47,890 bases of DNA, taken from assembly GCF_009742825.1 (NCBI RefSeq), contig NZ_WPCE01000003.1, forward strand, positions 1 through 47,890, in the 5' to 3' direction. Shown here in pieces: positions 292 to 27,518 of this stretch. The stretch is from Halorubrum sp. CBA1125 (lineage in GTDB: Archaea; Halobacteriota; Halobacteria; Halobacteriales; Haloferacaceae). How positions within the stretch are numbered: the first letter of the stretch is position 1; each line of letters starts with the position of its first letter. The notes below the pieces were generated by a model that searched no databases, was not told where the DNA came from, and worked only from the letters and a program-made list of their open reading frames with translations. The translations under genes and the position numbers were made by a program.

Positions 292-1053
292 ATGAGTGAA
301 GGTAACACCCATGTTCGATCGATAGATCGGACGCTCCGGATCGTGCAAGCGCTTCAAGAGCTCTCACGGGGGACGGTAACTGAGATATCGAACCACGTCG
401 GTCTGCCGAAAAGCACCGTCTACAATCACCTGCAAACGCTCTACGAAAACGAGTACGTCTCCCGGTCGGGAGAGGAGTATCACCTGGGGCTCCGCTTTCT
501 GGAGCATGGAGGGTATATCCGCAACCAGATGGACATCTTTCACGTAGCAAAACCTGAAGTCGAAGAATTGGCTGCAGAAACCGGCGAACTCGTCAACATG
601 CTCGTTGAAGAGCACGGTCGTGGTGTCTATCTCTACCGAGAGCGGGGCGAGCAAGCGGTGAACCTCGACTCGTACATCGGCAAGCGACAGTACCTCCACA
701 GTACCGCCTTCGGAAAGGCGATGCTCGCGTACATGGCTCCCGAGCGAGTGGACGAAATCCTCGATAAACATGGGATGATCAGCCGAACGGAACACACGAT
801 ATCCGACCGGGAAGAGCTGTCCCAAGAACTCGAGACCATCCGCGATCAGGGGTACGCGATAGACGACGAGGAAAGCCTCGAAGGCCTTCGCTGCGTGGCC
901 GCACCGATCTTGACCCAAGACGACGACGTGCTGGGTGCGGTGAGTATCTCCGGTCCAATAAGCCGGATCAGTGGCGACCGGTTCACGAAGGAGATACCGG
1001 AACTACTGCGAAGCACGACTAACGTCATCGAGATAAACATCACGTACTCGTAA
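292..1053 (+). CDS. IclR family transcriptional regulator
   Basis: A 253-residue protein with the IclR layout. A winged helix-turn-helix occupies about residues 14-60 (recognition helix around LPKSTVYNHLQTL), and a GAF-like effector domain runs from about 70 to 250 with the family pattern AKPEVEELAAETGEL and LHSTAFGKAMLAY. Haloarchaeal IclR proteins commonly control sugar-degradation operons as activators or repressors. Its neighbours are the broken ADP-ribosylglycohydrolase gene, which converges on it, and the apionate-type cluster further right, so a role in regulating that cluster is plausible but inferred. It closely resembles the IclR protein at 14495-15250 and looks intact. The ATG at 292 is the only start that keeps the whole HTH, and it fits the TATA spacing. 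Confidence 0.88.
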   Translation: MSEGNTHVRSIDRTLRIVQALQELSRGTVTEISNHVGLPKSTVYNHLQTLYENEYVSRSGEEYHLGLRFLEHGGYIRNQMDIFHVAKPEVEELAAETGELVNMLVEEHGRGVYLYRERGEQAVNLDSYIGKRQYLHSTAFGKAMLAYMAPERVDEILDKHGMISRTEHTISDREELSQELETIRDQGYAIDDEESLEGLRCVAAPILTQDDDVLGAVSISGPISRISGDRFTKEIPELLRSTTNVIEINITYS

Positions 1054-1414: not shown

Positions 1415-2493
1415 TCACAACATCTCGTCGAGCGTCTCCTCGCGCTTGCCTGCTCGGCGACGTTCGTTTTCGAGCGCCTCGACCAGCCATTCGCTCACCG
1501 TCTCGAAGTCGACACCGTCGTGCCCGTGTACCTCCTCGAAGAACTCCGCGTTTGCCGACTCGCACACCTCGACCCAGTCGTCGCGAAGGCTCCCCGCACC
1601 CCGAAGCGCGCCCGTGAGGTTGCCGACGACGGCCGCGATGGTGTCGCAATCCCGTCCGAAGCTCGCAGCCTCGACGATCGATCGGTCGACGTCCCCCTCA
1701 CAGAGCTCCAGCACGCCGACGGCCGCGGGGAGTATCTCGGCGCTGTCTGCGCTGAACACGCGCCCCTCCTCGTACAGCTCTCGGTCCCACTCCACTGCGG
1801 GCCACCGCCAGTCGAGCAGTTCGTCGTAAAACTGCTCGACGAACTCGTCTATCGTCTCGCTCTCCTCGGCGAGCCCCCGCGCCCGATCGACCGCGCGGAA
1901 CACGGCGTCGGACGCCTGATTCTCGATCACCTCGATGACGCTTTCGACGGACGCGTCCGGCGAAAGCGCTTCGGCGACGCCCGCCGCGACGGCCGCCGCC
2001 GCGTCGCGGTTGAATCCGTCCTGGTTCACGGAGGCGATGTTGAACCCGTCCTGGTACGCCTGCCGCGGATCGCCCGCGTTGACGATGCCGACGGGCGCGA
2101 TCGACATCGTCGCCGTGCCGTCGGGACGTTCTCTCTTCCCGCCTCCCAGGGGTTGATTCCCGAAGCCAGTTTGCGTATCACGATCTCTTCCGTGACCCAG
2201 ACCCGTTCGGGGTTGAGGTGTTCCCGCAGCACGTCGGCGTACTCGTCGGGCGTGACGCGTCCACCTCGCTCGGTTATCGCGAGACACAGGTAGTGGCTCA
2301 TGACCGTATCGTCGGTGACCGTCCCCGGCTCCCCCTTGGCGTGGGGGTTATCGTACGCCCGGAACGTTTCGACTTTCCCGTACTCGCGCCGAACTCTGTC
2401 GTACGACCACCCCTCGACGGGTGCACCGAGCGCGTCCCCGATCGCTCCCCCCACGAGGCACCCGTACACGCGGTCCGCGATGGGTCGTGTCAT
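1415..2493 (-). pseudogene. ADP-ribosylglycohydrolase family gene, frameshifted
   Basis: Two overlapping frames together make one complete ADP-ribosylglycohydrolase (DraG/ARH-like) protein of about 357 residues. The 5' part, starting at 2493, has the N-terminal motif [15 protein letters not shown] and the metal-binding [12 protein letters not shown]. The 3' part has [14 protein letters not shown] and the second metal motif GRDCDTIAAVVGNLTGAL. The family hydrolyses N- or O-glycosidic bonds of ADP-ribosyl or related ribosyl compounds; the substrate here is unknown. The frame breaks at 2112-2121, where the 5-mer gccgt occurs twice in tandem. Removing one copy restores [13 protein letters not shown] exactly, and adding a single base would also restore the frame. 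All catalytic motifs survive, so the break is recent, programmed, or a sequence error. It lies downstream of, and on the same strand as, the broken IclR gene, and could be co-transcribed with it. Confidence 0.82.
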
Positions 2494-2623
2494 CGGCCGG
2501 TGTTCGGCTGTTTCGGTGTCTCCGGCCGACCCTGTGGCGATTCTGCCTCGTTTCGTAGTCCGGTCTCGCGATCGGCGGCGGTTCTCGCTCGGTCGTCGTG
2601 GTGGGCCATTGGGAATGTCTTTA

Positions 2624-3417
2624 TCATGAGACCTTGTTCCGGAGGATCTGCGCGTACCGCTTCACTATCGTCGCGGGACTCTCCGCGAACCGCTGGGCTT
2701 TGATGTGGGACCCGGGATTCGGGATCTCCTCTTCCCGTCCGACGATCCCAATAGCGCCGACGGTCTCCCGTCCGCGGTCCAACACGACGGGGGCGGCGAT
2801 ACTGCAGGCTTCGTCACCGGGACCGTCACACCCGTACGCGAACCCCTGTTCGCGTACCTCGGCGAGCGTGGCTTCCAACGCCTCCCGGTCGCCGTCGGCC
2901 TCCGACTGCGCGTCCGGGAGTCCGTGACGGTCGAGGACATCGTCCACGATCTCCGCGGGCAGGTGCGCCAAGAGCGCTCTTCCGAACGCCGTCGAGTGGA
3001 GGTGGTGTTCGGTTCCGAGGTAGTACGCCTCCTCCGCGGCGTCGGTCGCCAGCGACTGGCAGAGAAAGACACACCGTCCCTGCTGTTGGGTGGCGAACAG
3101 TGCGGTCGCGTCGGCCTCTCGAGCCAACTTCTCTACCTCGCTCTCGCGGTTCTGGCGAGTTCGTGGCCGCGAACCGCCCGATTTCCGTAGTGGAGGAAGC
3201 GAAATCCGAGCCGGTATCCGCCGTCACCTCTCGTGAGAAACCGGTGTTTCTCTAGCGTCCGCAGGTAGTAATGTATCGTGCTCCGCGAGTAGTCGATCTC
3301 GTCGGTCAGTCCGCTCGGCGTGACTTCGCCGTGCTGGGCCACCAGTTCGACAATAGTGAAAGCCGTCTCCAGCGACCCGATGGTTTTCCCCCCATTGGTA
3401 CCGTCTGGCGTGCTCAT
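2624..3417 (-). pseudogene. IclR family regulator gene, frameshifted
   Basis: The 5' frame (3417 to 3133) encodes the winged helix-turn-helix, with the recognition region around YSRSTIHYYLRTLEKH and then LGFRFLHYGNRAVRGHELA. The 3' frame, ending at 2624, encodes the effector domain, including EVEKLAREADATALF, LHSTAFGRALLAHLP and EACSIAAPVVLDRG. Adding one base near 3137-3150 joins them into a normal IclR protein of about 264 residues. As sequenced, translation stops at a TAG at 3133-3135, giving a 94-residue DNA-binding fragment with no effector domain. If that fragment were made it might still bind DNA. The gene lies between the F420-dependent dehydrogenase gene and the broken ADP-ribosylglycohydrolase gene, all on the minus strand. 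It could have been the local regulator of the apionate-type cluster. Confidence 0.82.
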
Positions 3418-3665: not shown

Positions 3666-4640
3666 CTAGTATCGCGGCAGGATCTCGTCGGCCATCAGTT
3701 CGACGAACGCGTGTTGATCGGGGCTCGCGGAGTGTATCTCCACCTCGTCGAACCCGGCGTTTCGGGCGTCGTCGAGGGCGGTTCGGAGGTCGTCCGGATC
3801 GTCCGCTATTATCCAGCTGTCTGTCATCTCCTCGAGCGAGAGCTTCCGTCCCGCCTCCTCGATCTCCCGCGGATCCGCGATCGACTGGTCGAATCCCACG
3901 GCCTGCGGTCCCCGCCAGAACCCGACGCTCTCGAGCGCGTTCTCGTAGTCCTCGTCGTACGAGACCAGCAGCTGTTTGATGCGGCGGATGTCGTCGGGGT
4001 CGCGTCCGGCCGCTTCGGCCCCCGCTTCGAGGGCCGGCACGAGCGATTCGCGGTACCGCGCGTTGTCGACGAGCGTGAGGAACCCGTCGGCGTACTCGCC
4101 GGCGACCCGGGTCGTCTTCGGCCCGTTACCGGCGACGTACAGCGGAACCCGCTCGTCCGGGCGCGTGTACAGGTTGAGCGAGTTCGTCTCCCAGTAGTGG
4201 CCCTCGTAGTCGACGACCTCGCCGTCCCAGAGCCGAGTGATGATCTCGCACGCGTCGACCAACCGCCGTCGACGCTCGGGGTACGCGGGCCACTCGTACC
4301 CGAGCGGCACTTCGTTCATCGCCTCGCCCGTGGACAGCGCGAGGTGGACTCGCCCGGGGTACATCGCGCCCAACGTCGCGAACGCCTGTGCGATCATCCC
4401 CGGGTGGTAGCGTCCGATCGGAGGGGTGACGCCCGTACCGATGCGGACCGAGTCCGACCGTTCGAGCGCCGCCCCCAACCACGGCCACGCGGCGCCGCAG
4501 TGCGCGTCCGTGTGCCACCAGGGGTGGATGTGATCGCTCGTCCAGACGGTGTCGAACCCGGCCCCCTCGGCCAGCGACACGTGTTCCAGTAGCGTACTGG
4601 GGTCGTACTCCTCGTGAGCGGTGAACAAACCGATGTCCAT
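3666..4640 (-). CDS. F420-dependent sugar dehydrogenase (Fgd-like, LLM class)
   Basis: A 324-residue luciferase-like TIM barrel that aligns along its whole length with F420-dependent glucose-6-phosphate dehydrogenase (Fgd1). Conserved features are SDHIHPWWH (His37 and Trp41, matching Fgd1 His40 and Trp44), STGEAMNE (Glu105, matching the proton donor Glu109), an N-terminal Glu near residue 10 and IAQAFATLGAMYPGR. By my recollection of Fgd1, its three glucose-6-phosphate phosphate ligands Lys198, Lys259 and Arg283 are replaced here by about Asn, Asp and Ser. I therefore infer a non-phosphorylated sugar substrate oxidised at C1 to a lactone with coenzyme F420. The gene is divergent from the lactonase-RLP-kinase-oxidoisomerase cluster, sharing a 118-nt promoter region, which suggests it supplies the first step. 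Family assignment is firm; the substrate is not. Confidence 0.85.
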   Translation of the reverse strand: MDIGLFTAHEEYDPSTLLEHVSLAEGAGFDTVWTSDHIHPWWHTDAHCGAAWPWLGAALERSDSVRIGTGVTPPIGRYHPGMIAQAFATLGAMYPGRVHLALSTGEAMNEVPLGYEWPAYPERRRRLVDACEIITRLWDGEVVDYEGHYWETNSLNLYTRPDERVPLYVAGNGPKTTRVAGEYADGFLTLVDNARYRESLVPALEAGAEAAGRDPDDIRRIKQLLVSYDEDYENALESVGFWRGPQAVGFDQSIADPREIEEAGRKLSLEEMTDSWIIADDPDDLRTALDDARNAGFDEVEIHSASPDQHAFVELMADEILPRY

Positions 4641-4758
4641 ACCGGTTGTCCTGGTCGCGTGACAATATATCTATCGCGGGGAGCCCCCACCCTTCTCGGG
4701 AACCCCGGCGATGGCAGCGCATGATTTATGTGGATCATCCACGCAGTACCCATTCGAA
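4641..4758. promoter_or_regulatory. Divergent promoter region with operator-like palindrome
   Basis: This gap separates the Fgd-like gene (minus) and the MBL lactonase gene (plus). For the minus strand, aatatat at 4664-4670 lies 24-30 nt before the start at 4640. For the plus strand, tttat at 4725-4729 lies about 30 nt before the ATG at 4759. Between that box and the ATG is a perfect palindrome, gtggat-c-atccac, at 4730-4742, where a bound repressor could block initiation. The regulator is unknown; a nearby IclR protein is the obvious candidate. Confidence 0.5.
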
Positions 4759-5649
4759 ATGATTTGTTCGACCTGGGGCGACTGGTTCGTGTCCGACGAG
4801 ATCGAAGCGACCGATCCCGACGGCCTGTCGATCTGGTACCTCGGCTGTAACGGATTCGTCCTCCGGACCGCGGAGACGACGGTGTACATCGACCCGTACT
4901 TCGGGAACGGCAAGCCGCCGTGGACGATACGGATGATCCCCGTGCCGATGGATCCGGCCGACGCGACGATGTGTGACGCCGTCCTCGTCACCCACGAACA
5001 CATCGATCACATGCACGAGCCGTCGTTCAGACCGCTCGTCGAGAACTGCGGGGCGACGATCTGCGCGCCGGAGGCCTCCTACGAGAACCCCGATCTCGAA
5101 CTGGAACACGAGGTTCCCGCCGAGCAGAAGCGGGTCATCCGCGCCGGCGACACGCTCCAGATCGGCGACCTGACCGTCCACGTTCGGGGCGGAAACGACC
5201 CCGACGCGATCGAAGAGGTCTCCTACGTCGTCGAACACGAGTCGGGGACGTTCTTCAACGGCGGAGACAGCCGGCCGACCGAGGCGTTCTACGATATCGG
5301 CGAGGAGTTCGACATCGACGTCGGCTCGCTCACGTTCGGGACCGCCGGACGCATTCATCATCAAGACGAGGACGAGACGCGCGTCGAGCGGTGGTACAGC
5401 GACGAGAACGACGTCGTCGAGATGGCCACCGCCCTCCAGCTGGATCGGCTCCTCCCCTGCCACCACGACATGTGGAAAGGGGTGCGCGGTGACCCGACGT
5501 CGCTCTTCCAGCACGCGGCGTCGTTCGAGTACCCGACGACGATCGAACCGGTCCAGATCGGAGACCGCGTCACCGTGGGCTCGCCGGGGATCGCCTCGCT
5601 CCGGTCGATCCAAGAGGGCTGGGACGACTCGAAGCGGTGGCCCCGATGA
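4759..5649 (+). CDS. UlaG-like metallo-beta-lactamase-fold hydrolase, probable sugar lactonase
   Basis: A 296-residue protein of the MBL fold in the L-ascorbate-6-phosphate lactonase (UlaG) group. The metal site HxHxDH is visible as THEHIDHMH (residues 78-86), followed by GGDSRPTEAF and a C-terminal PCHHDMWKG. I chose the ATG at 4759 over the in-frame ATG at 4711. It aligns with the paralogue at 10499-11386 (MICSTWGD against MVHSTWGD), it fits the TATA spacing, and the earlier start would cover the palindrome. It is the first gene of a run with the RLP, kinase and oxidoisomerase genes. The best inference is hydrolysis of a sugar lactone, such as apionolactone, made by the divergent dehydrogenase. 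UlaG itself acts on a phosphorylated lactone, so specificity is unproven. Confidence 0.83.
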   Translation: MICSTWGDWFVSDEIEATDPDGLSIWYLGCNGFVLRTAETTVYIDPYFGNGKPPWTIRMIPVPMDPADATMCDAVLVTHEHIDHMHEPSFRPLVENCGATICAPEASYENPDLELEHEVPAEQKRVIRAGDTLQIGDLTVHVRGGNDPDAIEEVSYVVEHESGTFFNGGDSRPTEAFYDIGEEFDIDVGSLTFGTAGRIHHQDEDETRVERWYSDENDVVEMATALQLDRLLPCHHDMWKGVRGDPTSLFQHAASFEYPTTIEPVQIGDRVTVGSPGIASLRSIQEGWDDSKRWPR

Positions 5650-5698
5650 CGGGACACGCGACGCCCCGAACTGGGCTCAGGCACGCGGAAGCGAACAG

Positions 5699-5740
5699 CC
5701 AGACCGACGCGAGACACGACCAGACAGACGCGAGACACCG
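5699..5740 (+). repeat. Imperfect 21-bp tandem repeat between MBL and RLP genes
   Basis: Two copies of a 21-nt unit (ccagacNgacgcgagacac plus two bases) lie head to tail at 5699-5719 and 5720-5740 in the 99-nt gap before the RLP start at 5749. The gap has no clear promoter, so the repeat probably sits in the leader between two co-transcribed genes. Confidence 0.5.
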
Positions 5741-5748
5741 AGAGACAC

Positions 5749-7023
5749 ATGTCACGGTTTAAAGCGACCTACCGAATCGAAACGTCGCACTCGCTCGAGG
5801 AAGCGGCGGAATCGATGGCGGGCGAGCAGTCTTCCGGAACGTTCGTCGACGTTCCGGGCGAAACCGACGAACTGCGCGAGCGACACGGCGCGCGCGTCGC
5901 GCGCGTCACCGAACTCGACACGGTCGACGAGCCGACGCTTCCCGGATCCTCCCCCCCTGACGATGTCGACGAACCCGAGTCGTACACGCGCGCCGAGATC
6001 GACCTCTCCTTCCCGATGAGGAACGTCGGTTCCTCGCTGCCGAACCTGCTGACGACCGTCGCGGGCAACCTGTTCGAACTCAGTCCGTTTTCCGGGCTCC
6101 GCCTGCTGGACATCGACGTTCCGGCGGCGCTGGCCGACGCCTACCCCGGTCCCCAGTTCGGCATCGAAGGGACCCGCGAGATCGTCGATGTCTGGGACCG
6201 CCCGATCGTGGGGACGATCGTCAAACCCAACGTGGGCCTCTCACCGCAGGAGACTGCCGACCTCGTCGAGACGCTGGTCGACGCCGGACTCGACTTCATC
6301 AAAGACGACGAACTGATCGCCGACCCGCCGTACTCCCCCGTGGAAGACCGGATCGAGGCCGTGATGGACGTTATCCACCGTCACGAGGACCGGACGGGCG
6401 AGAAGGTCATGTACGCCTGTAACATCACCGGCGACGTCGACGAGATGCTCGCGCGCCACGACGTCGTGAAGGAGGCCGGGGGCAACTGCGTGATGGTGAG
6501 CGTCAACAGCGTGGGACTCACCGGCCTCACCGAACTCCGGCGCCACGCTGACCTCCCGATCCACGCTCACCGGAACGGCTGGGGAGCCCTCTCGCGCTGC
6601 CCGCAGCTCGGGTTCGAGTACGCGGCCTACCAGAAGTTCTGGCGCCTCGCCGGCGTCGATCACATGCACGTCAACGGGATCCGCAACAAGTTCTGTGAGT
6701 CCGACGAATCGGTGATCAGGTCGGCGCGGACGTGTCAGACCCCTATCGTCGACGAGGGCGACACCGTGATGCCCGTCTTCTCTTCGGGCCAGTGGGCGGG
6801 ACAGGCCCCCGAAACTTACGAGGCGCTCGGCAACGTCGACTGCATGTACCTCGCCGGCGGCGGCATTCTCGGCCACCCCGACGGGCCAGCCGCGGGCGTC
6901 GAACACCTCAAGCAGGGCTGGGAGGCCGCCATGCGGGGCATCCCACTCGAGGAGTACGCCGAGGATCACGAGGAGCTTCGACGGGCGATCGACCACTACG
7001 GCCCCGTCGGGAGTGGTCGCTGA
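5749..7023 (+). CDS. oiaX: RuBisCO-like protein, probable 3-oxo-isoapionate-4-phosphate transcarboxylase/hydrolase
   Basis: A 424-residue RuBisCO large-subunit homologue. Residues matching the RuBisCO active site are visible: Lys159 (VKPN, position 175), Lys185-Asp187-Glu188 (IKDDE, the carbamylated Lys and Mg ligands 201/203/204), His272 and His274 (IHAHRNG), HVNG at 307-310, Lys314 (loop-6 position 334), SSGQWAG, and GGGILGHPDGPAAG (phosphate binding). The second Lys of the usual KPK motif is Asn. The next two genes encode a DUF1537 kinase and an ApnO-type oxidoisomerase, which matches the bacterial OiaX pathway, where the RLP converts 3-oxo-isoapionate 4-phosphate to 3-phosphoglycerate and glycolate. 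There is no mtn-type methionine-salvage neighbour, so an MtnW role is unlikely. The stop overlaps the kinase start (TGATG), implying translational coupling. RLP identity is very secure; the exact reaction is inferred from context. Confidence 0.85.
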   Translation: MSRFKATYRIETSHSLEEAAESMAGEQSSGTFVDVPGETDELRERHGARVARVTELDTVDEPTLPGSSPPDDVDEPESYTRAEIDLSFPMRNVGSSLPNLLTTVAGNLFELSPFSGLRLLDIDVPAALADAYPGPQFGIEGTREIVDVWDRPIVGTIVKPNVGLSPQETADLVETLVDAGLDFIKDDELIADPPYSPVEDRIEAVMDVIHRHEDRTGEKVMYACNITGDVDEMLARHDVVKEAGGNCVMVSVNSVGLTGLTELRRHADLPIHAHRNGWGALSRCPQLGFEYAAYQKFWRLAGVDHMHVNGIRNKFCESDESVIRSARTCQTPIVDEGDTVMPVFSSGQWAGQAPETYEALGNVDCMYLAGGGILGHPDGPAAGVEHLKQGWEAAMRGIPLEEYAEDHEELRRAIDHYGPVGSGR

Positions 7024-8423
7024 TGTCCGACCTCCTGCTCGCCTTCTACGGGGACGACTTCACCGGTTCGACCGACGTCCTGGAGTCGCTGAGCCTCAAC
7101 GGGGTGCCGACCGTCCTCTTCCTCGAGTCGCCGGATCCGGAGGACCTGGAGCGTTTCGACGAGGTGCGGGCGGTCGGGATCGCGGGGACCAGTCGGAGCA
7201 TGACTCCCGACGAGATGGGCGAGGAGTTGCCGGCCGCGTTCGAAGCGCTGCGAGCGTTCGACGCGGAGATCGTTCAGTACAAGGTGTGTTCGACCTTCGA
7301 CTCGGCGCCGGACACGGGGAGCATCGGTCGGGCCATCGACATCGGTCAGGAGGTGTTCGGCTCGCCGTTCGTTCCCGTGGTCGTCGCCGCTCCCTCGCTC
7401 GAACCGCGGGGGCGGTACGTGCTGTTCGGCAACCTCTTCGCGACGCTCGAGGGGACCACCTACCGTCTCGATCGCCATCCCACGATGAGTCAACATCCCG
7501 TGACGCCGATGACGGAGGCGGATCTCACCGAACACCTGAGCGAGCAGACCGACCGGGAGATCGGCCTACTGGACGTCCGAAGCGTCGACGGAAACGCGGA
7601 CGCAGCGCTCCGGGACGACCTCGAGACGGTCGTCGCGGACAACGAGATCGTGTTCTTCGACGGCCTCAACCGCGATCACCAGCGAAAAGTCGGCCGCCTG
7701 ATCTGGGAGTACTGTGAGCGTGACGGTCGTGCCGACCCCCTATTCTCGGCGGCATCGTCGGGGCTCAACTACGCCCTCTCACGGCACTGGCAGGACACCG
7801 GCGTCGTATCCGTCCCCGAGGCGCCCGAGTCGGCGGGTCCGGTGGATCAGATCGTCGTGATGTCGGGGAGCGCTTCGCCCGTCAACCGCGATCAGATAGA
7901 CTGGGCGCTGGAGAACGGATTCGAAGGTGTCCGACTCGACACCCGCCGTCTGGTGGACCCCGACGAGGCCGAAGACGCGCGCGAGGAGGCGATCGACGCC
8001 GCGCTGACCGCGATCGACGACGGCGCGAGCTCGCTCCTGTACTCAGCGCGGGGACCCGACGATCCGGCGATCGAGCGAACGAACCAGCGCCTTCGCGAGC
8101 TGGACGTCGACGGTGAGCGTCTCGGCGCCCTGCTGGGCACCCAGCAGGGCGAGATCACCCGTGCGATCCTCGAGGCGACGGCCGTCGATCGCGTCTGCGT
8201 CGCCGGCGGCGACACCAGCGGCCACGTCGCTCCACACCTCGACGTCTTCGCACTCGAGTTTCTCGTCCCCGTCGGGCCCGGGAGCCCGCTGTGTCGGGCG
8301 GCCTCGCGGACCCAGGCGTTCGACGGACTGGAGATCGCTCTCAAGGGCGGACAGGTCCAGACGACCAACGACGAGGCGGACTTCTTCGGCGCGGTCCGGG
8401 CCGGCGGCGTTCCCCCCGAGTGA
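7023..8423 (+). CDS. oiaK: DUF1537 sugar-acid kinase, probable 3-oxo-isoapionate kinase
   Basis: A 466-residue four-carbon-acid-sugar kinase family protein. The N-terminal domain (about 1-230) carries the substrate motif GDDFTGSTD at residues 10-18 and HPVTPMTEADL. The C-terminal nucleotide-binding domain (about 265-455) carries SGSASPVN and GGDTSGHV. The ATG at 7023 overlaps the stop of the RLP gene by one base, so the two are almost certainly translated together. DUF1537 kinases phosphorylate threonate, erythronate or 3-oxo-isoapionate. The RLP and ApnO-type neighbours favour 3-oxo-isoapionate, giving the 4-phosphate used by the RLP. No PdxA2- or Otn-type partner that would point to a tetronate pathway is present. 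Confidence 0.85.
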   Translation: MSDLLLAFYGDDFTGSTDVLESLSLNGVPTVLFLESPDPEDLERFDEVRAVGIAGTSRSMTPDEMGEELPAAFEALRAFDAEIVQYKVCSTFDSAPDTGSIGRAIDIGQEVFGSPFVPVVVAAPSLEPRGRYVLFGNLFATLEGTTYRLDRHPTMSQHPVTPMTEADLTEHLSEQTDREIGLLDVRSVDGNADAALRDDLETVVADNEIVFFDGLNRDHQRKVGRLIWEYCERDGRADPLFSAASSGLNYALSRHWQDTGVVSVPEAPESAGPVDQIVVMSGSASPVNRDQIDWALENGFEGVRLDTRRLVDPDEAEDAREEAIDAALTAIDDGASSLLYSARGPDDPAIERTNQRLRELDVDGERLGALLGTQQGEITRAILEATAVDRVCVAGGDTSGHVAPHLDVFALEFLVPVGPGSPLCRAASRTQAFDGLEIALKGGQVQTTNDEADFFGAVRAGGVPPE

Positions 8424-8487
8424 TCGCCGACCCCCTCGACTCCCTCCGGCGAAACTACTATTACACTTCACGGAGTGGCATGTGACA

Positions 8488-9336
8488 ATGGCCGTCTCGG
8501 TTACTCTCATGGGCGCCGGTGGCAAGATGGGGTGTCGGATCACCGACCGACTCAAGGACAACGACCGCTACGAGATGCGATACGTCGAGCCCGGCGAGCA
8601 AGGGCGCGAGCGACTCGCCGATCGGGGGCTCTCCGCGCAGTCGACGGACGCGGCGCTCGACGGGACTGACATCGTTGTGATGGCCGTCCCCGACGAACTG
8701 ATCGGGTCGATCACCGACGACGTCGTCCCGAAGGTGGACAGCGGTACGATGATCGTCCTGCTCGACCCCGCGGCCGCCTACGCCCGCGTACTCCACGACC
8801 GCGAGGACGTCACGTACTTCCTCACGCATCCGTGTCACCCCTCGTTTTTCACCGCTGAGACGAGCATGGACGACGAGGACACCGACTGGTTCGGCGGGCA
8901 AGGCCGCGACCGGCAGGATATCGTCTGTGCGCTCCACCAGGGGTCGGACGACGAGTATTCGAAGGGAGAGGCGATCGCACGGGACATGTACGCGCCCGTT
9001 CGGGACGCCCACCGGGTGACGACCGAGCAGATGGCCCTCCTCGAACCCGCACTCGTCGAGACGCTCCTGGGTACCTGCCTCGACGTCATCTGCGACGGCT
9101 ACGAACGCGTCGTCGAGATGGGCGTTCCCGAGGACGCCGCGCGGGCGATGCTGTTCGGCCACCTGCGCATCGAACTGGGGATAACCTTCGGGTACACCGA
9201 CTTCCCGTTCTCCGACGGCGCCCAACAGGCCATCGAGAACGCCAAAAAGGAGATCTTCCAGCCCGACTGGGAAGATCGGGTGTTCGGGACCCAGAACGTA
9301 CGGGAGAGCGCCGAAATGATTGCCGACGCCGACTAG
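8488..9336 (+). CDS. apnO: ApnO-type oxidoisomerase, probable D-apionate oxidoisomerase
   Basis: A 282-residue Rossmann-fold dehydrogenase related to 6-phosphogluconate and hydroxyisobutyrate dehydrogenases. The nucleotide-binding loop LMGAGGKMG is at residues 7-15. Family-typical blocks are VAVP-type strand ends (VVMAVPDE), THPCHPSFF, DIVCALHQG, APVRDAHRVTTEQMALLEPAL and FGHLRIELGI. These match the bacterial ApnO group, which oxidises and rearranges D-apionate to 3-oxo-isoapionate with NAD. The ATG at 8488 places the glycine-rich loop at the expected distance. The gene follows the kinase by 64 nt on the same strand and completes the ApnO-OiaK-OiaX set. Family recognition is from memory of conserved blocks; the substrate is inferred. 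Confidence 0.8.
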   Translation: MAVSVTLMGAGGKMGCRITDRLKDNDRYEMRYVEPGEQGRERLADRGLSAQSTDAALDGTDIVVMAVPDELIGSITDDVVPKVDSGTMIVLLDPAAAYARVLHDREDVTYFLTHPCHPSFFTAETSMDDEDTDWFGGQGRDRQDIVCALHQGSDDEYSKGEAIARDMYAPVRDAHRVTTEQMALLEPALVETLLGTCLDVICDGYERVVEMGVPEDAARAMLFGHLRIELGITFGYTDFPFSDGAQQAIENAKKEIFQPDWEDRVFGTQNVRESAEMIADAD

Positions 9337-10072: not shown

Positions 10073-10456
10073 ATGTCGGACCAGACCGACTCGGACGATT
10101 CCATCCGCGAACTCGAAGTCTGGTGTGCCGGCGAGGAGTGGTGTCCGGTGACGACCACGGCCACGCTCATCGGGAAGAAGTGGCACCCGGTCATCATCCA
10201 TCGGCTCCTCGAACACGGTCCCAGCGGGTTCAACGACCTCAAGACGGCCGTCGACGGGATCTCGAGTAAGGTCCTCTCGGACAGCCTCGACGACCTCGCG
10301 GAGAACGACCTCGTCGAGCGAGAGGTCGTAAGCGAGAAACCGTTTCGAGTCCAGTACTCGCTGACTCCTCACGGCCAATCGCTGGAACCGGTGATCGACG
10401 CGATGCGCGACTGGGGGATGCAACACCTGACGGCGCCCGCCGATGCAGATCCGTGA
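10073..10456 (+). CDS. HxlR family winged-helix transcriptional regulator
   Basis: A 127-residue protein with a single HxlR domain. CPVTTTATLIGKKWHPVII (about residues 24-42) is the family signature with the conserved Cys, and the HTH and wing follow at about 50-95 (GFNDLKTAVDGISSKVLSDSL, then LVEREVV and YSLTPHGQSL). HxlR proteins often sense redox or electrophile stress, or control nearby catabolic genes. It converges on the second MBL gene, from which it is separated by 42 nt. Repeated GTAAC motifs lie 30-65 nt upstream of its start. The target is unknown. Confidence 0.88.
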   Translation: MSDQTDSDDSIRELEVWCAGEEWCPVTTTATLIGKKWHPVIIHRLLEHGPSGFNDLKTAVDGISSKVLSDSLDDLAENDLVEREVVSEKPFRVQYSLTPHGQSLEPVIDAMRDWGMQHLTAPADADP

Positions 10457-10498: not shown

Positions 10499-11386
10499 TC
10501 AGTGTTCACCGAGATTTCGCATCGGTTCGATACCGGGCTCTCGAACGGTCAGCCTATCACCGACCTCCGCCACCTCGAGAACCCGCGGGTAGGCGAACGA
10601 CGCCATGTGTTCGTGGATGGACTTCGCGTCCGCTAACCCTCCCTTCCACATGTCGAAGTGGCACGGGACGAGGCGATTCAACTGGAGTGCGTTCGCCGAC
10701 TCGACCACGTCGTTTTCGTCCATGTACATCTTTCCGGGTTCCGCGTGCGGTTCCTCGTCTTCTGTGATCCAGTCGCCGGTGTAGAAGATCCGCGCGTGTG
10801 TCCCGAACGCAAGCGCGCCCAAATCGATATCGAACTCGCTGCCGATCTCGTCGAATGCGTCGGCAACCCGGCTGTCGCCCGCCGTAAAGAAGGTGCCCGT
10901 CTCGTGCTCGACGACGTACGAGACGTCGCCCGCCGCGTCCGGATCGTTACTCTCTCGGACGTGAACCGTGAGGTCGCCGATGTCGAACGAGGCGCCCGGT
11001 TCGACTATTTGCCGCCGGGATTTCGGTGCCCGCAGGTCGGGATAGTCTATCTGCGGCGATTCGAAACAGGTCGAGGACGCGTACAAGTCCGCGCCTAGGT
11101 CTTCCACCATCGGCCCGTACGAATCGGGGTTGAAGTGGTCGACGTGCTCGTGGGTGGCGAGCACGGCGTCGCAGGCGGTAACGTCTTCCGGATCCAGCGG
11201 AACGGGGATCATCCGATACCACGTGGGCGGATCCCCGTCACCGAAGTACGGGTCGACGTAGATCGTCGCTTCGGGCGATCGAAGCACGAACCCGTTACAG
11301 CCGAGGTACCAGACGGTCAGACAGTCCGGCGTGGTCGCCTCAATTTCTTGCTTGAGGAACGTGTCTCCCCATGTCGAGTGGACCAT
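10499..11386 (-). CDS. UlaG-like MBL-fold hydrolase, second copy
   Basis: A 295-residue paralogue of the protein at 4759-5649, similar along its whole length. It has STWGD, WYLGCNGFVLR, IDPYFG-like YVDPYFGDG, the metal motif THEHVDHFN, AGDSRVADAF, YMDENDVVE and PCHFDMWKG. A longer start at 11401 exists, but the ATG at 11386 aligns with the paralogue. Its distance from the RLP cluster (about 5 kb) and its own convergent HxlR gene suggest separate control, so it may act on a different lactone or be a duplicate undergoing specialisation. It is probably a metal-dependent, cytosolic lactonase. The substrate is not known. Confidence 0.82.
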   Translation of the reverse strand: MVHSTWGDTFLKQEIEATTPDCLTVWYLGCNGFVLRSPEATIYVDPYFGDGDPPTWYRMIPVPLDPEDVTACDAVLATHEHVDHFNPDSYGPMVEDLGADLYASSTCFESPQIDYPDLRAPKSRRQIVEPGASFDIGDLTVHVRESNDPDAAGDVSYVVEHETGTFFTAGDSRVADAFDEIGSEFDIDLGALAFGTHARIFYTGDWITEDEEPHAEPGKMYMDENDVVESANALQLNRLVPCHFDMWKGGLADAKSIHEHMASFAYPRVLEVAEVGDRLTVREPGIEPMRNLGEH

Positions 11387-16338: not shown

Positions 16339-17316
16339 TTACAAACGCACTTCCTCCCCGGTTTCGACGCTTTCGTAGAGCGCGTCGATCACCCGCATGT
16401 TGTTGATCGAGTCCTGTCCGCCCGTGCGCGGAGTCTTTCCTTCTTCGACGCACTCGGCAAAGTGTTCGACCTCCAGGCAGTACTGGTCGACCGGCTGAAA
16501 CTCCTCGACGCCGTGCCGACCGTCGATCTGATACTCGAGCGTCGTCGACGAATCCGGGGGAGCATTGTAGGTAACCTCCTGTTCGGCCTCGATCCAGCCG
16601 TTTTCCCCCTCGATGCGGTAGCGCTGGACGTCTTCCGTATCGAACGAGCAGTCGAATTGCGCGATCGCACCCGAGTCGTATCTGAGAACGCCGCTCATCT
16701 GGGTGTCGACCCCACAGTCGCGTGTGTCGAGCGCGTAGGCGAACACGCGGTCGGGTTCTCCGAGGATCCATCGTGCCCCCGAGACGGGGTAACAGCCCAG
16801 ATCCATCAGGCTCCCGCCGGCCAACGCCGGGTCGATGCGGATATCCTCGGGATCGGTAAGCGGAAACTTCAGCGTGCCGCCGACCCACGTGACCCGACCG
16901 AGTTGATCACGCGCGAGTTCGCGGATCCGCTGGTTTCGGGGATGGTATCGGTACATAAACGCCTCCATGAGGACGACGTCCCGTTCCTCGCAGTATTCGA
17001 CGAGATCACGGGCCTCTGCGGCATCGGAGGTGAGCGGCTTCTCACAGAGCACGTCCAGGCCGTGGTCGGCCGCCCGCTTGGACCACTCGGCGTGCATCGA
17101 ATTCGGTAACGGGTTGTACACGGCGTCGATCTTCTCCGCCTCGAACATCGCCTCGTAGGAGCCGTAGGCGTCTGGGATACCCAGATCGTCGGCAGCCTCC
17201 TGTGCGCGTTTCTCGTCGCGCGACGAGATCGCCTGGACCGTGTGATCGCTCCGATTGATACCCGGAATGACGTCTTCCGTGGCGATTGCAGCCGTGCTGA
17301 TTATCCCGAATCGCAT
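16339..17316 (-). CDS. Gfo/Idh/MocA family sugar dehydrogenase
   Basis: A 325-residue NAD(P)-dependent dehydrogenase. The Rossmann loop starts at FGIISTAAIA. The catalytic Lys is in CEKPLTSDAAEA (about residues 90-92, EKP), and the substrate domain has EAFMYRYHPRNQ, GGSLMDLGCYPVSGARW and VDQYCLEVEHFAECV. Relatives include xylose, glucose-fructose and apiose dehydrogenases that make aldonolactones. It is transcribed divergently from L-arabinose isomerase, so a role in a pentose route is likely. It is also an alternative candidate for the first step of the apiose/apionate pathway, since the bacterial apiose dehydrogenase belongs to this superfamily. The substrate is unknown. Confidence 0.85.
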   Translation of the reverse strand: MRFGIISTAAIATEDVIPGINRSDHTVQAISSRDEKRAQEAADDLGIPDAYGSYEAMFEAEKIDAVYNPLPNSMHAEWSKRAADHGLDVLCEKPLTSDAAEARDLVEYCEERDVVLMEAFMYRYHPRNQRIRELARDQLGRVTWVGGTLKFPLTDPEDIRIDPALAGGSLMDLGCYPVSGARWILGEPDRVFAYALDTRDCGVDTQMSGVLRYDSGAIAQFDCSFDTEDVQRYRIEGENGWIEAEQEVTYNAPPDSSTTLEYQIDGRHGVEEFQPVDQYCLEVEHFAECVEEGKTPRTGGQDSINNMRVIDALYESVETGEEVRL

Positions 17317-17560
17317 GCGTCGGTTCGTGGTCGGAACCGTATTAAGTGTACTGTGACGGATGAGCCACCACTGAGATCACGACGACGGAACACGGGGACC
17401 CCTCCTACGTGGTTGTCAGGTACGCTCCCGATAGTGGCTTCGCGGACAACCTGTCGAACGGAGCCACCCCGCGTCCTCCGCTCACCAGTGATGAGCAAGC
17501 CCAAGACGGACCAGTGGATTTTTGTATTTACGGTGGAATCCAGCGATCCATGTCCAGTTG

Positions 17561-17627
17561 TATAAAAACAATGATCAGTGCTGCCCCAGACGCTTCGGGG
17601 TTTCAAAATAGGTCCGTCGAGGAGGGA
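17561..17627 (+). promoter_or_regulatory. Promoter and ribosome-binding site of araA
   Basis: tataaaaa at 17561-17568 is a strong archaeal TATA box. Unlike most genes here, a leader of about 40 nt is expected, ending in a clear Shine-Dalgarno tract, ggaggga (17621-17627), 4-10 nt before the ATG at 17632. This fixes the start codon over the upstream in-frame TTG/ATG-like options. Confidence 0.6.
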
Positions 17628-17631
17628 GAAC

Positions 17632-19134
17632 ATGTTTGATTTCGACGACTACGAGCTCTGGTTCGTGACCGGGAGCCAGGAGCTCTACGGCGACGAAGTG
17701 CTGCAAACCGTCGCTGATCACTCGCGAGAGATTGCCGAGTACCTGTCCAACGCCGATGAGATTCCGGTCGACGTCGCCTTCAAGCCGGTGTTGACCTCCC
17801 CTCGTGAGATCGAAGCACTAGTCCACGAGGCAAATGCGGACGCGGACTGTGTCGGACTGATCACGTGGATGCACACGTTCTCACCCGGTCAGATGTGGAT
17901 CAACGGCTTACGGTCGCTCGACAAGCCGTTTGCCCACCTGCACACCCAGTACAACGAGGAGCTCCCGTGGAGCGAGATCGACATGGAGTTCATGAACACG
18001 AATCAGTCCGCTCACGGCGGCCGGGAGTTCGGGTTCACCGCGTCCAGGCTCGGCCTCAACAGGAAGGTCGTCGTCGGGCACTGGAAAGCCCAGCGCGTCC
18101 TCGAGAAACTGGGGACGTGGACGCGGGCGGCGTGTGCCTGGGAAGACATCCGCGGCGCGAAGATCGCCAGGTTCGGCGATAACATGCGTCATGTCGCCGT
18201 TACGGAGGGGGACAAGGTTGAAGCGAAGATGCAGTTTGGGTGTACCGTGAGCGGATACGGACTCGGCGACGTGGTCGAGTACGTCGACGACGTCACCGAC
18301 GACGAGATCGACGCCACCGTCAGCCAGTACGAGACGGAGTACGAACTCGCCCCGTCTCTCCGCGAGGACGGCGATCGGCGTGATTCCCTCAGAGAGGCGG
18401 CCGCCATCGAAGTCGGGATACGTACCTTCCTCGAGGATGGGAACTTCAAGGGGTTCACGACCACCTTCGAAAACCTCACTGGCCTGTCACAGCTCCCCGG
18501 ACTCGCCGTGCAGCGATTGATGGCGGACGGCTACGGCTTCGGTCCCGAGGGCGACTGGAAATCCGCCATGCTGACACGGGCGATCTACGTGATGGGACAG
18601 GGGCTGGAGGGAGGGTCCTCGCTGATGGAGCATTACACCTATCACCTGACTCCCGGAGAGGAGAAAGTACTCGGTGCGCATATGCTGGAGATCAGTGAGT
18701 CGATCGCCACGGACCCGGTCTCCGTGGAGATTCACCCGCTCGATATCGGCGGCAAAGCAGATCCGGTGCGCGCCGTGTTCGACGCCGAGACCGGCCCGGC
18801 CGTGAACGCGTCGCTGGTCGATCTCGGAGACAGGTTCCGTCTCGTGGTCAACGAGGTGGAATCTGTCGAACCGGACGAACCGTTGCCCGAACTACCGGTC
18901 GCGAGAGCCGTCTGGAAGCCGAAGCCGGACTTCGAAACCGCAATCGAAGCCTGGATCCGCGCGGGCGGCGCGCATCACACGGGATACAGCCAGGCGATAA
19001 CCTCCGAACACCTGAAAGACTTCGCCGATATCGCGGACGTCGAGTTCCTCGTGATAGACGAGGACACCGAGATTGCGGCGTTCGAGAAGGAGCTCGACTG
19101 GAACGAGATTCGATGGCGGCTCGATAACACGTAA
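17632..19134 (+). CDS. araA: L-arabinose isomerase
   Basis: A 500-residue protein, the usual AraA length, similar throughout to bacterial L-arabinose isomerase. It opens with [12 protein letters not shown] and keeps [23 protein letters not shown] and [15 protein letters not shown]. The active-site residues correspond to E. coli Glu306 (TTTFENL), Glu333 (GFGPEGDWK), His350 ([10 protein letters not shown], with His where Asp is usual before the Tyr) and His450 (GAHHTGYSQ). It isomerises L-arabinose to L-ribulose in the cytoplasm using a divalent metal. Most haloarchaea degrade L-arabinose oxidatively, so AraA is uncommon; it is known in Halorhabdus. No AraB or AraD gene is in the window. A single gene behind a strong promoter, divergent from a sugar dehydrogenase; transfer from bacteria is likely in its history. 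Confidence 0.93.
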
Positions 19135-19337
19135 CTCGGTCAACGGAGCGTGGTTCGGCACGTGAACGTTCCGGACCAGATCTTCTATTACCGAGTCCTA
19201 GCAGCGTATTGCCATCTCACGCCGTTCGTGGCTCACAGCCCGTCGCCGCTTTCGCACTGCCGCGCGTTATCTTTGTTCTTTGATATCCGTTGTCAATCAC
19301 CGAAACGTTAATGATATCCCGCTATTCTAACCTTACC

Positions 19338-20483
19338 ATGGCATCCATCGAGCTGGATAACCTACGTAAGGTATTCAACGAAGGCGGTGGTGATCTCGTC
19401 GCCGTCGACGACTTAAGTCTCAAAGTTGACGACTCCGACTTCCTCGTGTTAGTCGGTCCGTCTGGCTGTGGGAAGTCAACGACGCTTCGTACGATCGCCG
19501 GGTTGGAACAGCCGACCGATGGGCAAATCCTGTTCGACGGGGAGGACGTCACGGACATGGGCCCCCAGGAACGTCGGGTCGCAATGGTGTTCCAGGATTA
19601 CGCGCTGTACCCCCATATGACGGCACGGGAGAACATGTCATTTGGGCTGAGATACGGTTCGGACCACGACGACGAGGAGATCGATCGGCGCGTGAACGCG
19701 GCCGCCGAGATGATGGGTATTGAGAACCACCTGGAGAGCAGGCCGAATGAGCTTTCGGGCGGGCAACAGCAGCGTGTGGCGCTGGGACGGGCTATCGTCC
19801 GTGAGCCGGAAGTCTTCCTGATGGACGAGCCGCTCTCGAACCTGGACGCGAAGCTCCGCGCGCAGATGCGGACGGAACTCCAGGAACTTCACTCGAAGCT
19901 CGATATCACCACGGTGTACGTCACCCACGACCAGGAAGAGGCGATGACGATGGGCGACCAACTCGCCGTCCTCAACGACGGAGAGCTCCAGCAGATCGGG
20001 ACCCCTCTCGAGTGTTACCAAGAACCGGCCAATACGTTCGTCGCCGGGTTCATCGGCTCGCCCCGTATGAATCGGTTCGAGGGTCGCCCCAACGGGAACC
20101 TCCTCGAGACCGACGCGTTCGACTACCACCTTCCGGACGACGTCGCCGGGCAAATTCCGACGGGCACCGACGAGGTCATCCTGGGCATCCGTCCGGAGGA
20201 CGTCAAAGTCGTCGATTCCCCGACGGAAAACAGTCTCTCGACCGAGATAAACGTCGTCGAACGAATGGGAGACCTCACCCACATCTACACCACTGTCGGG
20301 GACGACGAGTGTATCATCACGCTCTCCGGACAGGCGGAGGTCGCCCAGGGAGACGAGATCGAAATCGAGTTCCCCACGGCCCGCATTCACCTCTTCGACG
20401 GGAAGACCGGAGACGCGCTCAAGAACCGCGATTCAGACGTGAGTATCGGCGAATCCGCCTCGATCAGCTCGGGGATCTCGTAA
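19338..20483 (+). CDS. Carbohydrate ABC transporter ATP-binding protein (UgpC/MsmK/XacJK-like)
   Basis: A 381-residue ATPase of the CUT1 type. Motifs are Walker A GPSGCGKST, Q-loop FQDYALYPHMT, signature LSGGQQQRVALGRA, Walker B VFLMDEPLSNLD and the switch His in VTHDQEEAM. The C-terminal 130 residues form the regulatory TOBE domain (GIRPEDV). The ATG at 19338 gives the standard N-terminus MASIELDNLRKVF; earlier TTG and ATG codons add an atypical leader. No permease is adjacent. The nearest CUT1 binding protein and permeases are at 25980-29323, and this ATPase probably energises them, like the shared XacJ/XacK ATPases of Haloferax xylose/arabinose uptake. Confidence 0.9.
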   Translation: MASIELDNLRKVFNEGGGDLVAVDDLSLKVDDSDFLVLVGPSGCGKSTTLRTIAGLEQPTDGQILFDGEDVTDMGPQERRVAMVFQDYALYPHMTARENMSFGLRYGSDHDDEEIDRRVNAAAEMMGIENHLESRPNELSGGQQQRVALGRAIVREPEVFLMDEPLSNLDAKLRAQMRTELQELHSKLDITTVYVTHDQEEAMTMGDQLAVLNDGELQQIGTPLECYQEPANTFVAGFIGSPRMNRFEGRPNGNLLETDAFDYHLPDDVAGQIPTGTDEVILGIRPEDVKVVDSPTENSLSTEINVVERMGDLTHIYTTVGDDECIITLSGQAEVAQGDEIEIEFPTARIHLFDGKTGDALKNRDSDVSIGESASISSGIS

Positions 20484-20639
20484 GTCGATCCAGTTCCGGG
20501 CGTATCCCTCTCCGATCGTATACTCTCGGTTTTTCTCGGTTCCACTCGAACAGTCGTTCCCTGTCGCCGATCTCCACTGCGGGTTCTCCGCCTGGAGCTG
20601 CGCGTCGTAACGTCGTTCGGAACGGATTGGTGACAGTAG

Positions 20640-21140
20640 AGGGTGTCATAGAACGCTTCTCACGCCGTGTTATTTCAGAGCGGAACTGGAGAATCAGCTG
20701 GTAGAGTCGGCGTGCTAGTGGTACGATATTCCGGGTGGAACTGCTCGATACGAGATTGTCGTCAACGCGGAGAACATCTGTAAAGCCCTCGGCGATACGT
20801 GGTCGATAGTTCCACGGCGAATACGTCCAAAGCCCCAGCCGGGAGGACTCGGGGGCCTTGCTGCGCGCCTTGGTCACTCGTTTCACTCGCTCCCTGCGGT
20901 GCTTACTGCGGCCGCCGTCGTCCTCCTGGCTGCCCTTTTGAATCCCACCCCGCACCGCACAGCCCCGCCTCAAACCTCCCCAGCCTCGCGGTTCGCGCTC
21001 TTCGAGCGCTCACCGCATCCCTCGCGCTCCGTCTCGCGCCCTACCGGGCGCTCGCGGGAGCGCGCCACCACAGAATCGCTCACTCCTTGACCTGTACTGA
21101 GCGAATCCTGTACAGGCGTGTGAACCCTTCTATGACACTC
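20640..21140. mobile_element. MITE-like element with imperfect terminal inverted repeats
   Basis: The left end (about 20642-20666, ggtgtcatagaacgcttctc then acgcc) matches the reverse complement of the right end (about 21116-21140) at roughly 21 of 24 positions, including an uninterrupted gtgtcatagaa. The roughly 0.5 kb between them has no transposase; it is a low-complexity, GC-rich mix with frames that make no sense. The central 20691-20916 segment is repeated near the right end of the window. I infer a non-autonomous insertion element or a decayed insertion sequence. Target-site duplications were not identified. It lies between the ABC ATPase gene and a convergent SDR gene. Confidence 0.55.
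20691..20916 (+). repeat. Long direct repeat, copy 1
   Basis: This 226-nt segment aligns from end to end with 47658-47890. Shared blocks include gaatcagctg, cggcgtgctagtggtacga, ctcgatacgagattgtcgtc, gcggagaacatctg and tgcggtgcttactgcggccg. The two copies have the same orientation, 27 kb apart, so recombination between them could remove or amplify most of the second sugar island. Sequences of this style are widely dispersed in some haloarchaeal genomes as far as I recall. Confidence 0.8.
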
Positions 21141-21189
21141 TATGAAGTATCTTTCAGCCTCTCTTGACTGCACGGTGACCCGTCTCCAC

Positions 21190-21978
21190 TCAGATGATCT
21201 GCCAGCCGCCGTCGACGGTCAGGAGTTCGCCGGTCACGTACGAGGCGGCGTCACTCGCCAGGAACAGCGCGGCCGGCGCTACCTCGTCGGGGTGGCCCGC
21301 GCGGCCCATCGGTACGGGCTTGATAAACTCGTCTTGTTCGGCGCCCTCGGTCGCCTCTTCCGTCCATCCCTCGACCATCTCCGTCGCGGTCTGTCCCGGG
21401 GCGACGGCGTTGACCCTGATTCCGTGCTTCGCGAGCTCGAGCGCGCTGCCGCGCGTGACCATCCGGACCGCACCCTTCGTCGCGTCGTAGTGAACCTGAT
21501 TGAACTGTGCGAGGTGTGAGCTGGTCGAGGCCGTGTTGACGATCGTCCCCGGACTCTCGCGGTCGAGCATGTCGTTGGCCGCGGCTTGACAGCCGAAGAA
21601 CACCCCTTTGACGTTGACCTCGAAGATGCGGTCGAACTGTTCGGGGTCCAGCTCGCGCATCGGACTCGACATGATCATGCCGGCGTTGTTGACCATCACG
21701 TCGAGGCCACCGAACTCACGCGCGGCCTCGACCACAGATTCGATTTCGGACGGTTCGCTCACGTCGGTTTCCACGTAGTGACCGTCTCCAGCGGTTTCGG
21801 TTATTCGCTCGTGCGTGGGCGTGTTTGCGTTGACGTCTTTCGGTTCCTCGTCGACGTCTGCGTTGATCACCGTTGCACCGGCACGGCCAAACGCGAGCGC
21901 AATCGCCCGACCGATTCCGGAACTCGCTCCCGTCACGATCACCGTCTCATCACTAAAGTCGAAAGTGAGCGATCCCAT
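21190..21978 (-). CDS. SDR family oxidoreductase
   Basis: A 262-residue classical short-chain dehydrogenase. The cofactor loop is TGASSGIGRAI (residues 17-27), and the acidic NADVDEE after the second strand suggests NAD preference. NNAGMI, the catalytic Ser in NTASTSSH, and the YxxxK pair in HYDATK are present, and the protein ends in the family-typical YVTGELLTVDGGW. Substrate classes for such SDRs include sugar alcohols, aldonates and sugars. It converges on the MITE-like element and is divergent from the next SDR gene, with about 217 nt between them. It is only distantly related to the three other SDR genes in the window. Confidence 0.88.
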   Translation of the reverse strand: MGSLTFDFSDETVIVTGASSGIGRAIALAFGRAGATVINADVDEEPKDVNANTPTHERITETAGDGHYVETDVSEPSEIESVVEAAREFGGLDVMVNNAGMIMSSPMRELDPEQFDRIFEVNVKGVFFGCQAAANDMLDRESPGTIVNTASTSSHLAQFNQVHYDATKGAVRMVTRGSALELAKHGIRVNAVAPGQTATEMVEGWTEEATEGAEQDEFIKPVPMGRAGHPDEVAPAALFLASDAASYVTGELLTVDGGWQII

Positions 21979-22195
21979 ACGTATCCGCTTTTGTGGGCGA
22001 ACTTAGCTCTTTCTCAGCGGTCGGCGTCGCAGGTTCGCCTCACAGCGGTACCAAGAGAGACCTCGTCCAGCCTGCGATCGGTCTCGCCCGTCCTCGTCGT
22101 CCCTTCGTCACGATTCGAGTTCACGTGCAAACCTGTGTCGCCGGTCGGCGTGTTGGCGAAATGTTTTTGGTCGGAGGGTCTGGTTGGTAATCTGC

Positions 22196-22963: not shown

Positions 22964-23102
22964 ACGGCCATTACAACCACTAGCTCGGTATCGGAGGCGG
23001 CTCGGATCTGCGGCGGGCTTCTCCGAGGTGTTCACGTGAGACCGGAGGGGTCCGACGTGTGGGTCCCGGAGCGTCTGATATCGAGCCTATTCCAACAAAC
23101 CA

Positions 23103-24455: not shown

Positions 24456-24634
24456 TCGGGACTAGCGATCTCGACTGGCGTCGTCGCTATCTCTTTTTCG
24501 ACAGACGACCGGAGTCACACCCGCCGGTATCGACTCGCAACCGGACGACGTTCTTCGGACGAACAACCAGTCTCCTGTGACGGCCGTCAGCCGAACGCGG
24601 TGAGGGAAAACGGAGGTGTGTTTCGCCGTTTTCG

Positions 24635-25947: not shown

Positions 25948-25956
25948 TTATAAATA
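25948..25956 (+). promoter_or_regulatory. TATA box of the sugar ABC transporter operon
   Basis: ttataaata lies 24-32 nt before the ATG at 25980, the canonical spacing for a leaderless archaeal transcript. The rest of the 25577-25979 gap is moderately AT-rich and shows no gene. The in-frame GTG at 25968 is disfavoured because it would fall before the expected transcription start. Confidence 0.6.
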
Positions 25957-25979
25957 CGATTACTACGGTGTACACTGAT

Positions 25980-27488: not shown

Positions 27489-27518
27489 CTGCCTAACCTC
27501 CAGTTACCATTATTCGAC

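Follow-up and report, generated by a model that had tools for sequence, protein, structure and literature searches.

How would a haloarchaeon use a RuBisCO-like protein (RLP) that is encoded next to a DUF1537 kinase and a homologue of the D-apionate oxidoisomerase ApnO? The question is raised by positions 3666-9336 of contig NZ_WPCE01000003.1 of Halorubrum sp. CBA1125, analysed here over a stretch of 47,890 nucleotides (hereafter the window). A sequence-only reading had recognised an F420-type dehydrogenase gene divergent from genes for an MBL hydrolase, an RLP, a kinase and an ApnO-type enzyme, and had proposed an archaeal version of apiose/apionate degradation. The places, strands and family types of these genes were confirmed by open reading frame calls and Pfam searches (Table 1). 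The branched sugar apiose occurs in the cell walls of plants. Its bacterial D-apiose/D-apionate pathway, said to have been worked out by Carter et al. 2018, reportedly involves ApsD, ApnL, ApnO, OiaK and an RLP. On balance, and with moderate confidence, we read the cluster of the window as a haloarchaeal D-apionate degradation module.

A conserved core related to bacterial apiose clusters

The association of the three core genes recurs well beyond the window. Among 17 distinct haloarchaeal loci, collected from genomes, plasmids and named genome contigs, the RLP and kinase genes are adjacent in 16, one of which carries them fused in a single reading frame. ApnO lies at most 9 kb from this pair in 11 loci and farther along the same contig in one more. 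Such frequencies of adjacency and proximity argue that the clustering is not due to chance. The core is present in about 2-3% of Halobacteriales genomes and in about ten or more genera, often on plasmids. A sample of 392 genomes of the order contained the RLP 10 times, spread over 9 of 95 genera; no other sampled member of the window's own genus had it, and a separate sample of 146 relatives yielded four, the window included. Since many copies are carried by plasmids, horizontal transfer of the core is likely. The acidic composition of the cluster proteins (Asp plus Glu 17-20%, Lys plus Arg 7-9%), which is the haloarchaeal pattern, argues against contamination; the source assembly, broken into 379 contigs, is 84% complete.

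Phylogenetic trees gather the haloarchaeal copies of each core protein in one clade, with a support of 100 for the RLP, 94 for the kinase and 100/99 for ApnO. The sisters of the haloarchaeal ApnO proteins are exactly those of four bacterial loci (support 100/98), namely L053 (Anaerolineaceae), L054 (Bacteroidetes), L056 (Opitutales) and L111 (Opitutaceae), all of which lie in clusters with ApnL and Gfo-type ApsD-like genes. The same four apiose-cluster bacteria are the neighbours of the haloarchaeal RLPs in a large quick tree. Bacterial RLP-kinase clusters come in several kinds. Full apiose clusters combine ApnO and ApnL with a Gfo-type ApsD-like gene, and others lack ApnO and carry genes for an SDR and a hydrolase; the model NF049900 recognised ApnL, at a score below the cut-off, in L053 and L205. 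As for the kinase, its best NCBIfam model is OiaK (NF042436, 510.1 bits), far ahead of those for 3-oxo-tetronate kinase (180) and D-threonate kinase (64). Because three genes with matching histories are combined with one substrate-specific enzyme, apionate appears to be the best-supported substrate of the haloarchaeal core, in line with the apionate-type core proposed by the sequence-only reading. In another haloarchaeal genome (G099, L221:9577-13036), a second ApnO gene stands right after an orthologue of the dehydrogenase of the window and before a mandelate-racemase-family gene, in a locus devoid of RLP and kinase; some ApnO-like proteins may thus have another role.

A probable OiaT-like activity of the RLP

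The transcarboxylase/hydrolase activity among RLPs of this pathway is named OiaT (EC 3.7.1.28). The sequence-only reading had instead linked the name OiaX with the products 3-phosphoglycerate and glycolate. These products are probably right, but the name is not, as NCBIfam labels OiaX (NF042437) a 3-oxo-isoapionate-4-phosphate decarboxylase. According to a review, decarboxylation and transcarboxylation/hydrolysis are catalysed by RLPs from A. radiobacter K84 and X. autotrophicus (PMC6302742). OiaX is the best NCBIfam model for the RLP of the window, which nevertheless scores 531.7 bits against a cut-off of 700. In 347 Hyphomicrobiales genomes, this model retrieves 24 proteins at 757-791 bits, the next score being 488, and no match passes the cut-off in 200 genomes of Caballeronia's order or in 392 haloarchaea. 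The RLP tree likewise resolves OiaX as a narrow and separate rhizobial clade on a long branch. A constraint joining the haloarchaeal RLPs to it was rejected (p-AU 0.0085), while their grouping with the apiose-cluster bacteria was not (p 0.39, smaller RLP tree). The RLP of Ancylobacter, taken as a proxy for the characterised OiaT since it comes from the bacterial family of Xanthobacter, falls in the same broad non-OiaX group as the haloarchaeal RLP.

Active-site residues also set the haloarchaeal RLP apart from OiaX. The RLP of the window keeps the equivalents of RuBisCO E60, T65, N123, K175, K201, D203, E204, H294, R295, H327, K334 and S379, and K177 is replaced in all aligned RLPs, here by an asparagine. 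OiaX and haloarchaeal RLPs share K175, the carbamylation lysine K201, D203, E204, H294, R295 and K334. At RuBisCO positions 60, 123 and 327, however, the OiaX clade displays D, G and Q versus E, N and H in the haloarchaeal and nearly all other RLPs. The substitutions E60D, N123G and H327Q are common to the 16 aligned OiaX proteins (set L155-L178), and the clade also has a cysteine or a glycine at one of the two candidate columns for S379. The chemical roles of E60, N123 and H327 are established in RuBisCO. The simplest reading of these alignments would be that OiaX has lost carboxylation and that the haloarchaeal RLP has not. Since the haloarchaeal RLP misses the OiaX cut-off, is excluded from the OiaX clade and keeps the residues that OiaX has lost, it probably works like OiaT, by decarboxylation, recarboxylation at the adjacent carbon and hydrolysis. 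In OiaX clusters, a presumed isomerase gene between the RLP and ApsD proved to be an antisense artefact, the real gene encoding a GntR-type-regulator-like protein on the opposite strand; gene context therefore leaves the product of the decarboxylase unsettled.

Predicted pathway and its upstream half

Family identity, co-localisation, common ancestry with the genes of bacterial apiose clusters and retained active-site residues can be read from the sequences, and substrates and products are predicted from them, those of steps 1 and 2 above all. In the proposed route, the LLM-class dehydrogenase would use coenzyme F420 to oxidise an aldose, most likely D-apiose, at C1 to a lactone (step 1), which one or both UlaG-like MBL enzymes would open to D-apionate (step 2). 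The ApnO homologue would then turn apionate into 3-oxo-isoapionate (step 3), the OiaK homologue would phosphorylate the latter at C4 (step 4), and the OiaT-like RLP would decarboxylate this compound, return the CO2 to the neighbouring carbon and hydrolyse the product to 3-phosphoglycerate and glycolate, thereby reusing the carboxylation machinery of RuBisCO itself (step 5). Apiose itself would be a candidate growth substrate. The enolase and pyruvate kinase genes found within the RLP cluster of the Haloterrigena KLK7 plasmid (L035:13734-16783) fit a 3-phosphoglycerate product, and a GlcD-like oxidase gene in the genome of the window, although scoring below the cut-off, fits the predicted pair of products.

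The haloarchaeal system resembles the OiaT branch of the bacterial pathway by a conserved cluster that encodes homologues of ApnO, OiaK and the RLP, by closest bacterial relatives that sit in such clusters and by the RuBisCO-type active site of its RLP. It differs from it by its archaeal host, by RLP and kinase scores below the NCBIfam cut-offs and, as the sequence-only reading had anticipated, by its upstream enzymes. ApnL had no match in the 12 haloarchaeal genomes tested (that of the window being 84% complete) and was found in two bacterial controls. No ApsD-like protein occurs among the Gfo-family proteins of the window, which score 35-73 bits against ApsD-like proteins that reach 275-476 among themselves. 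In their place, the window has the F420-type dehydrogenase and UlaG-like MBL genes. It must hence be assumed that apionate is either taken up as such or made by the oxidising F420/MBL pair.

The dehydrogenase passes the F420-dependent model TIGR03557 (221.9 bits for a cut-off of 210.4), which agrees with its initial assignment. It has the fold of FGD but does not reach the cut-off of the FGD model TIGR03554 (254 versus 420). Aligned to FGD structure 5lxe, it keeps the equivalents of H40, W44 and E109, whereas those of K198, K259 and R283 are absent (N, gap and S). From FGD1, we take the former to be the catalytic His/Trp/Glu and the latter the phosphate-binding Lys/Lys/Arg. The loss of phosphate-binding residues makes a free sugar or alcohol a likelier substrate than a sugar phosphate. 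The two MBL proteins, 55% identical to each other, are relatives rather than members of the UlaG family (83 and 75 bits with NF008688, cut-off 306). The first matches UlaG 2wyl of the PDB (E=1e-16) and displays the metal motif HEHIDH. Elsewhere, MBL relatives (about 47-61% identity) occur beside the D-xylose dehydrogenase Gfo6 in Haloarcula litorea and beside an LLM gene in Haloterrigena turkmenica and H. salifodinae. LLM genes that neighbour RLPs in Ancylobacter and in one cluster of the OiaX clade were set aside as parallels, the former being at generic family distance and the latter unrelated.

Taken together, steps 1 and 2 have at best about an even chance of being correct. In a more complete proposal, haloarchaea would have evolved an apiose entry of their own. 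A dehydrogenase that oxidises free sugars with F420 would stand in for ApsD and a UlaG-type lactonase for ApnL, and both would feed an ApnO-OiaK-RLP core obtained by horizontal transfer, in which the RLP would still carboxylate and hydrolyse as RuBisCO does, with internally released CO2. This proposal is tentative and falls appreciably short of an even chance.

Alternative readings

Several observations weigh against parts of this scheme. ApnO was neither nearby nor found on the replicon in five of the 17 haloarchaeal loci. The kinase lies below the OiaK cut-off (510.1 versus 700), as the RLP does below that of OiaX, although kinases of the bacterial apiose clusters L053 (520) and L202 (498) miss the former as well. 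The smaller and more careful RLP tree leaves the exact sister group of the haloarchaeal RLPs unsettled (42-66 bootstrap), NCBIfam returned no OiaT model for the RLP of the window, and its probable OiaT-like activity is deduced from its residues, its place outside OiaX and the usual enzyme names, so that we do not claim OiaT membership. The same core might house a simple decarboxylase that yields erythrulose 4-phosphate and CO2. Such an enzyme would belong to the same superfamily and presumably act on the same substrate, OiaX is the best-scoring model, and the 531 bits of the window exceed those of all non-OiaX bacterial RLPs seen. The isolated scores and long branch of the OiaX proteins, the rejected constraint, the retention of E60, N123 and H327, and the lack of any recognised erythrose-phosphate isomerase gene in the haloarchaeal clusters make this reading quite improbable. 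A different branched or related sugar acid, as in a D-hamamelose-type route, is also an unlikely substrate. An RLP pathway for D-hamamelose has been described in Ochrobactrum anthropi with the same products as predicted here, 3-phosphoglycerate and glycolate (PMC8914248; Kim et al. 2018, as cited in PMC10176493), and many RLP-kinase clusters that lack ApnO, some of them haloarchaeal, have genes for an SDR and an alpha/beta-hydrolase. The title of the O. anthropi description nonetheless sets it apart by another branched sugar and an oxygenase RLP. Moreover, the cluster of the window contains an ApnO tied by its tree to apiose clusters and has no SDR within the core, and the large tree puts the bacterial RLPs of the SDR type in a separate clade (the O. 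anthropi RLP not being placed). As to a methionine-salvage enolase (MtnW) or a genuine RuBisCO, with which the RLP shares the RuBisCO fold domains, either is very hard to reconcile with 532 bits for the OiaX model versus 290 for RuBisCO III and 163-219 for MtnW models, with the replacement of K177 by N and with a tree that separates it from haloarchaeal RuBisCO III. By these scores the RLP stands far from RuBisCO and from MtnW, a grouping with which the sequence-only reading had named as fatal to its proposal.

The most serious competitor concerns the upstream half only and comes close to an even chance: apionate would be imported as such, and the LLM and MBL enzymes, encoded in a pentose-rich region, would act on a different sugar, for example ribose or arabinose. 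Direct uptake of the sugar acid is consistent with the TRAP or GntP permease genes of other haloarchaeal clusters. The LLM and first MBL genes were found beside the core in no other haloarchaeon seen, and both Halegenticoccus, the closest cultured relative (83% identity to the RLP of H. tardaugens), and Halalkalicoccus carry the core without them. LLM/MBL pairs elsewhere sit with nucleoside hydrolase or inositol genes and may oxidise other sugars. Genes for a sugar ABC transporter and for an L-arabinose isomerase lie in the window itself. A plasmid of Natrinema gelatinilyticum (L216:6266-16461) has LLM (69%) and MBL (63%) homologues among three nucleoside hydrolase genes, which suggests pentose oxidation, possibly an F420-dependent oxidation of ribose. 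In favour of a role in apiose use stand the position of the first MBL gene, on the same strand and 100 bp upstream of the RLP gene, the 75% identical orthologue of the second MBL protein inside the RLP cluster of G302, and the 69% identical LLM orthologue directly upstream of an ApnO gene in G099.

Novelty and implications

In the literature searched, which mostly excluded subscription papers and makes for a weak absence, no description was found of an archaeal apiose/apionate pathway, as the sequence-only reading had supposed, or of a form IV RuBisCO in Halobacteria. The core is of a known bacterial kind, and its novelty lies in the archaeal host, the plasmid spread and the different upstream enzymes. 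If correct, our reading would bring archaea into a plant-sugar pathway that was discovered only recently, and would give an identity to haloarchaeal RLPs, whose public annotation is generic ('ribulose-bisphosphate carboxylase large subunit family protein' or similar). To our knowledge, a free-sugar F420 dehydrogenase would also give F420 a physiological role that is new for haloarchaea. Besides, RuBisCO positions 60, 123 and 327 offer a clear sequence test for decarboxylating versus carboxylating RLPs, with a bearing on the evolution of RuBisCO chemistry and on how often carbon fixation by RuBisCO is wrongly counted in metagenomes of salt lakes.

Locus organisation and neighbourhood

The LLM gene is divergent from the first MBL gene, whose open reading frame opens at 4711 and whose start at 4759 was chosen by comparison with its paralogue. 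The 1-bp overlap of the RLP and kinase genes noted initially was confirmed, the stop TGA and the start ATG having one base in common in TGATG at 7021-7025. The cluster extends past 3666-9336 to the second MBL paralogue (Table 1). IclR genes also lie near the RLP in several other haloarchaeal loci.

Table 1. Features of the window discussed in the text
Feature	Position	Strand	Family evidence	Remark
IclR-family regulator	292-1053	+	PF01614/PF09339	possible cluster regulator (weak candidate)
LLM-class F420-type oxidoreductase	3666-4640	-	PF00296; TIGR03557 above cut-off	candidate aldose 1-dehydrogenase
UlaG-like MBL-fold hydrolase	4759-5649	+	PF12706/PF13483	candidate aldonolactonase; first gene of probable operon
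RuBisCO-like protein (RLP)	5749-7023	+	PF00016+PF02788	OiaT-like; putative 3-oxo-isoapionate-4-phosphate transcarboxylase/hydrolase
DUF1537 kinase, OiaK-like	7023-8423	+	PF07005+PF17042	putative 3-oxo-isoapionate kinase
ApnO-like protein, PGDH_C family	8488-9336	+	PF16896 164 bits; PDB 5t57 E=1e-66	predicted D-apionate oxidoisomerase
HxlR-type regulator	10073-10456	+	PF01638	between core and second MBL gene
Second UlaG-like MBL hydrolase	10499-11386	-		paralogue of 4759-5649; candidate lactonase of same pathway
L-arabinose isomerase	17578-19134			
Sugar ABC transporter genes	19290-20483, 25968-29323			
Gfo6-like xylose dehydrogenase	30361-31608			
Ketohexokinase-family gene	32034-33161			

A pentose-use region (16339-33161) accompanies the cluster. 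On the other side of the cluster (1415-3417, minus strand), each of two genes, one for an ADP-ribosylglycohydrolase and one of the IclR type, is broken over two reading frames, which reflects either recent decay or assembly errors.

Finally, a conserved protein of about 267 amino acids is encoded directly upstream of the RLP in L035 (9121-9927), L036, L037, L038, L040, L138 and L139. It gave no match in Pfam and PDB searches and is apparently internally duplicated, the series GSHG...GVGKDDAGI...SARIGD...SHVN occurring twice. Weaker relatives of this protein are encoded near bacterial RLPs.

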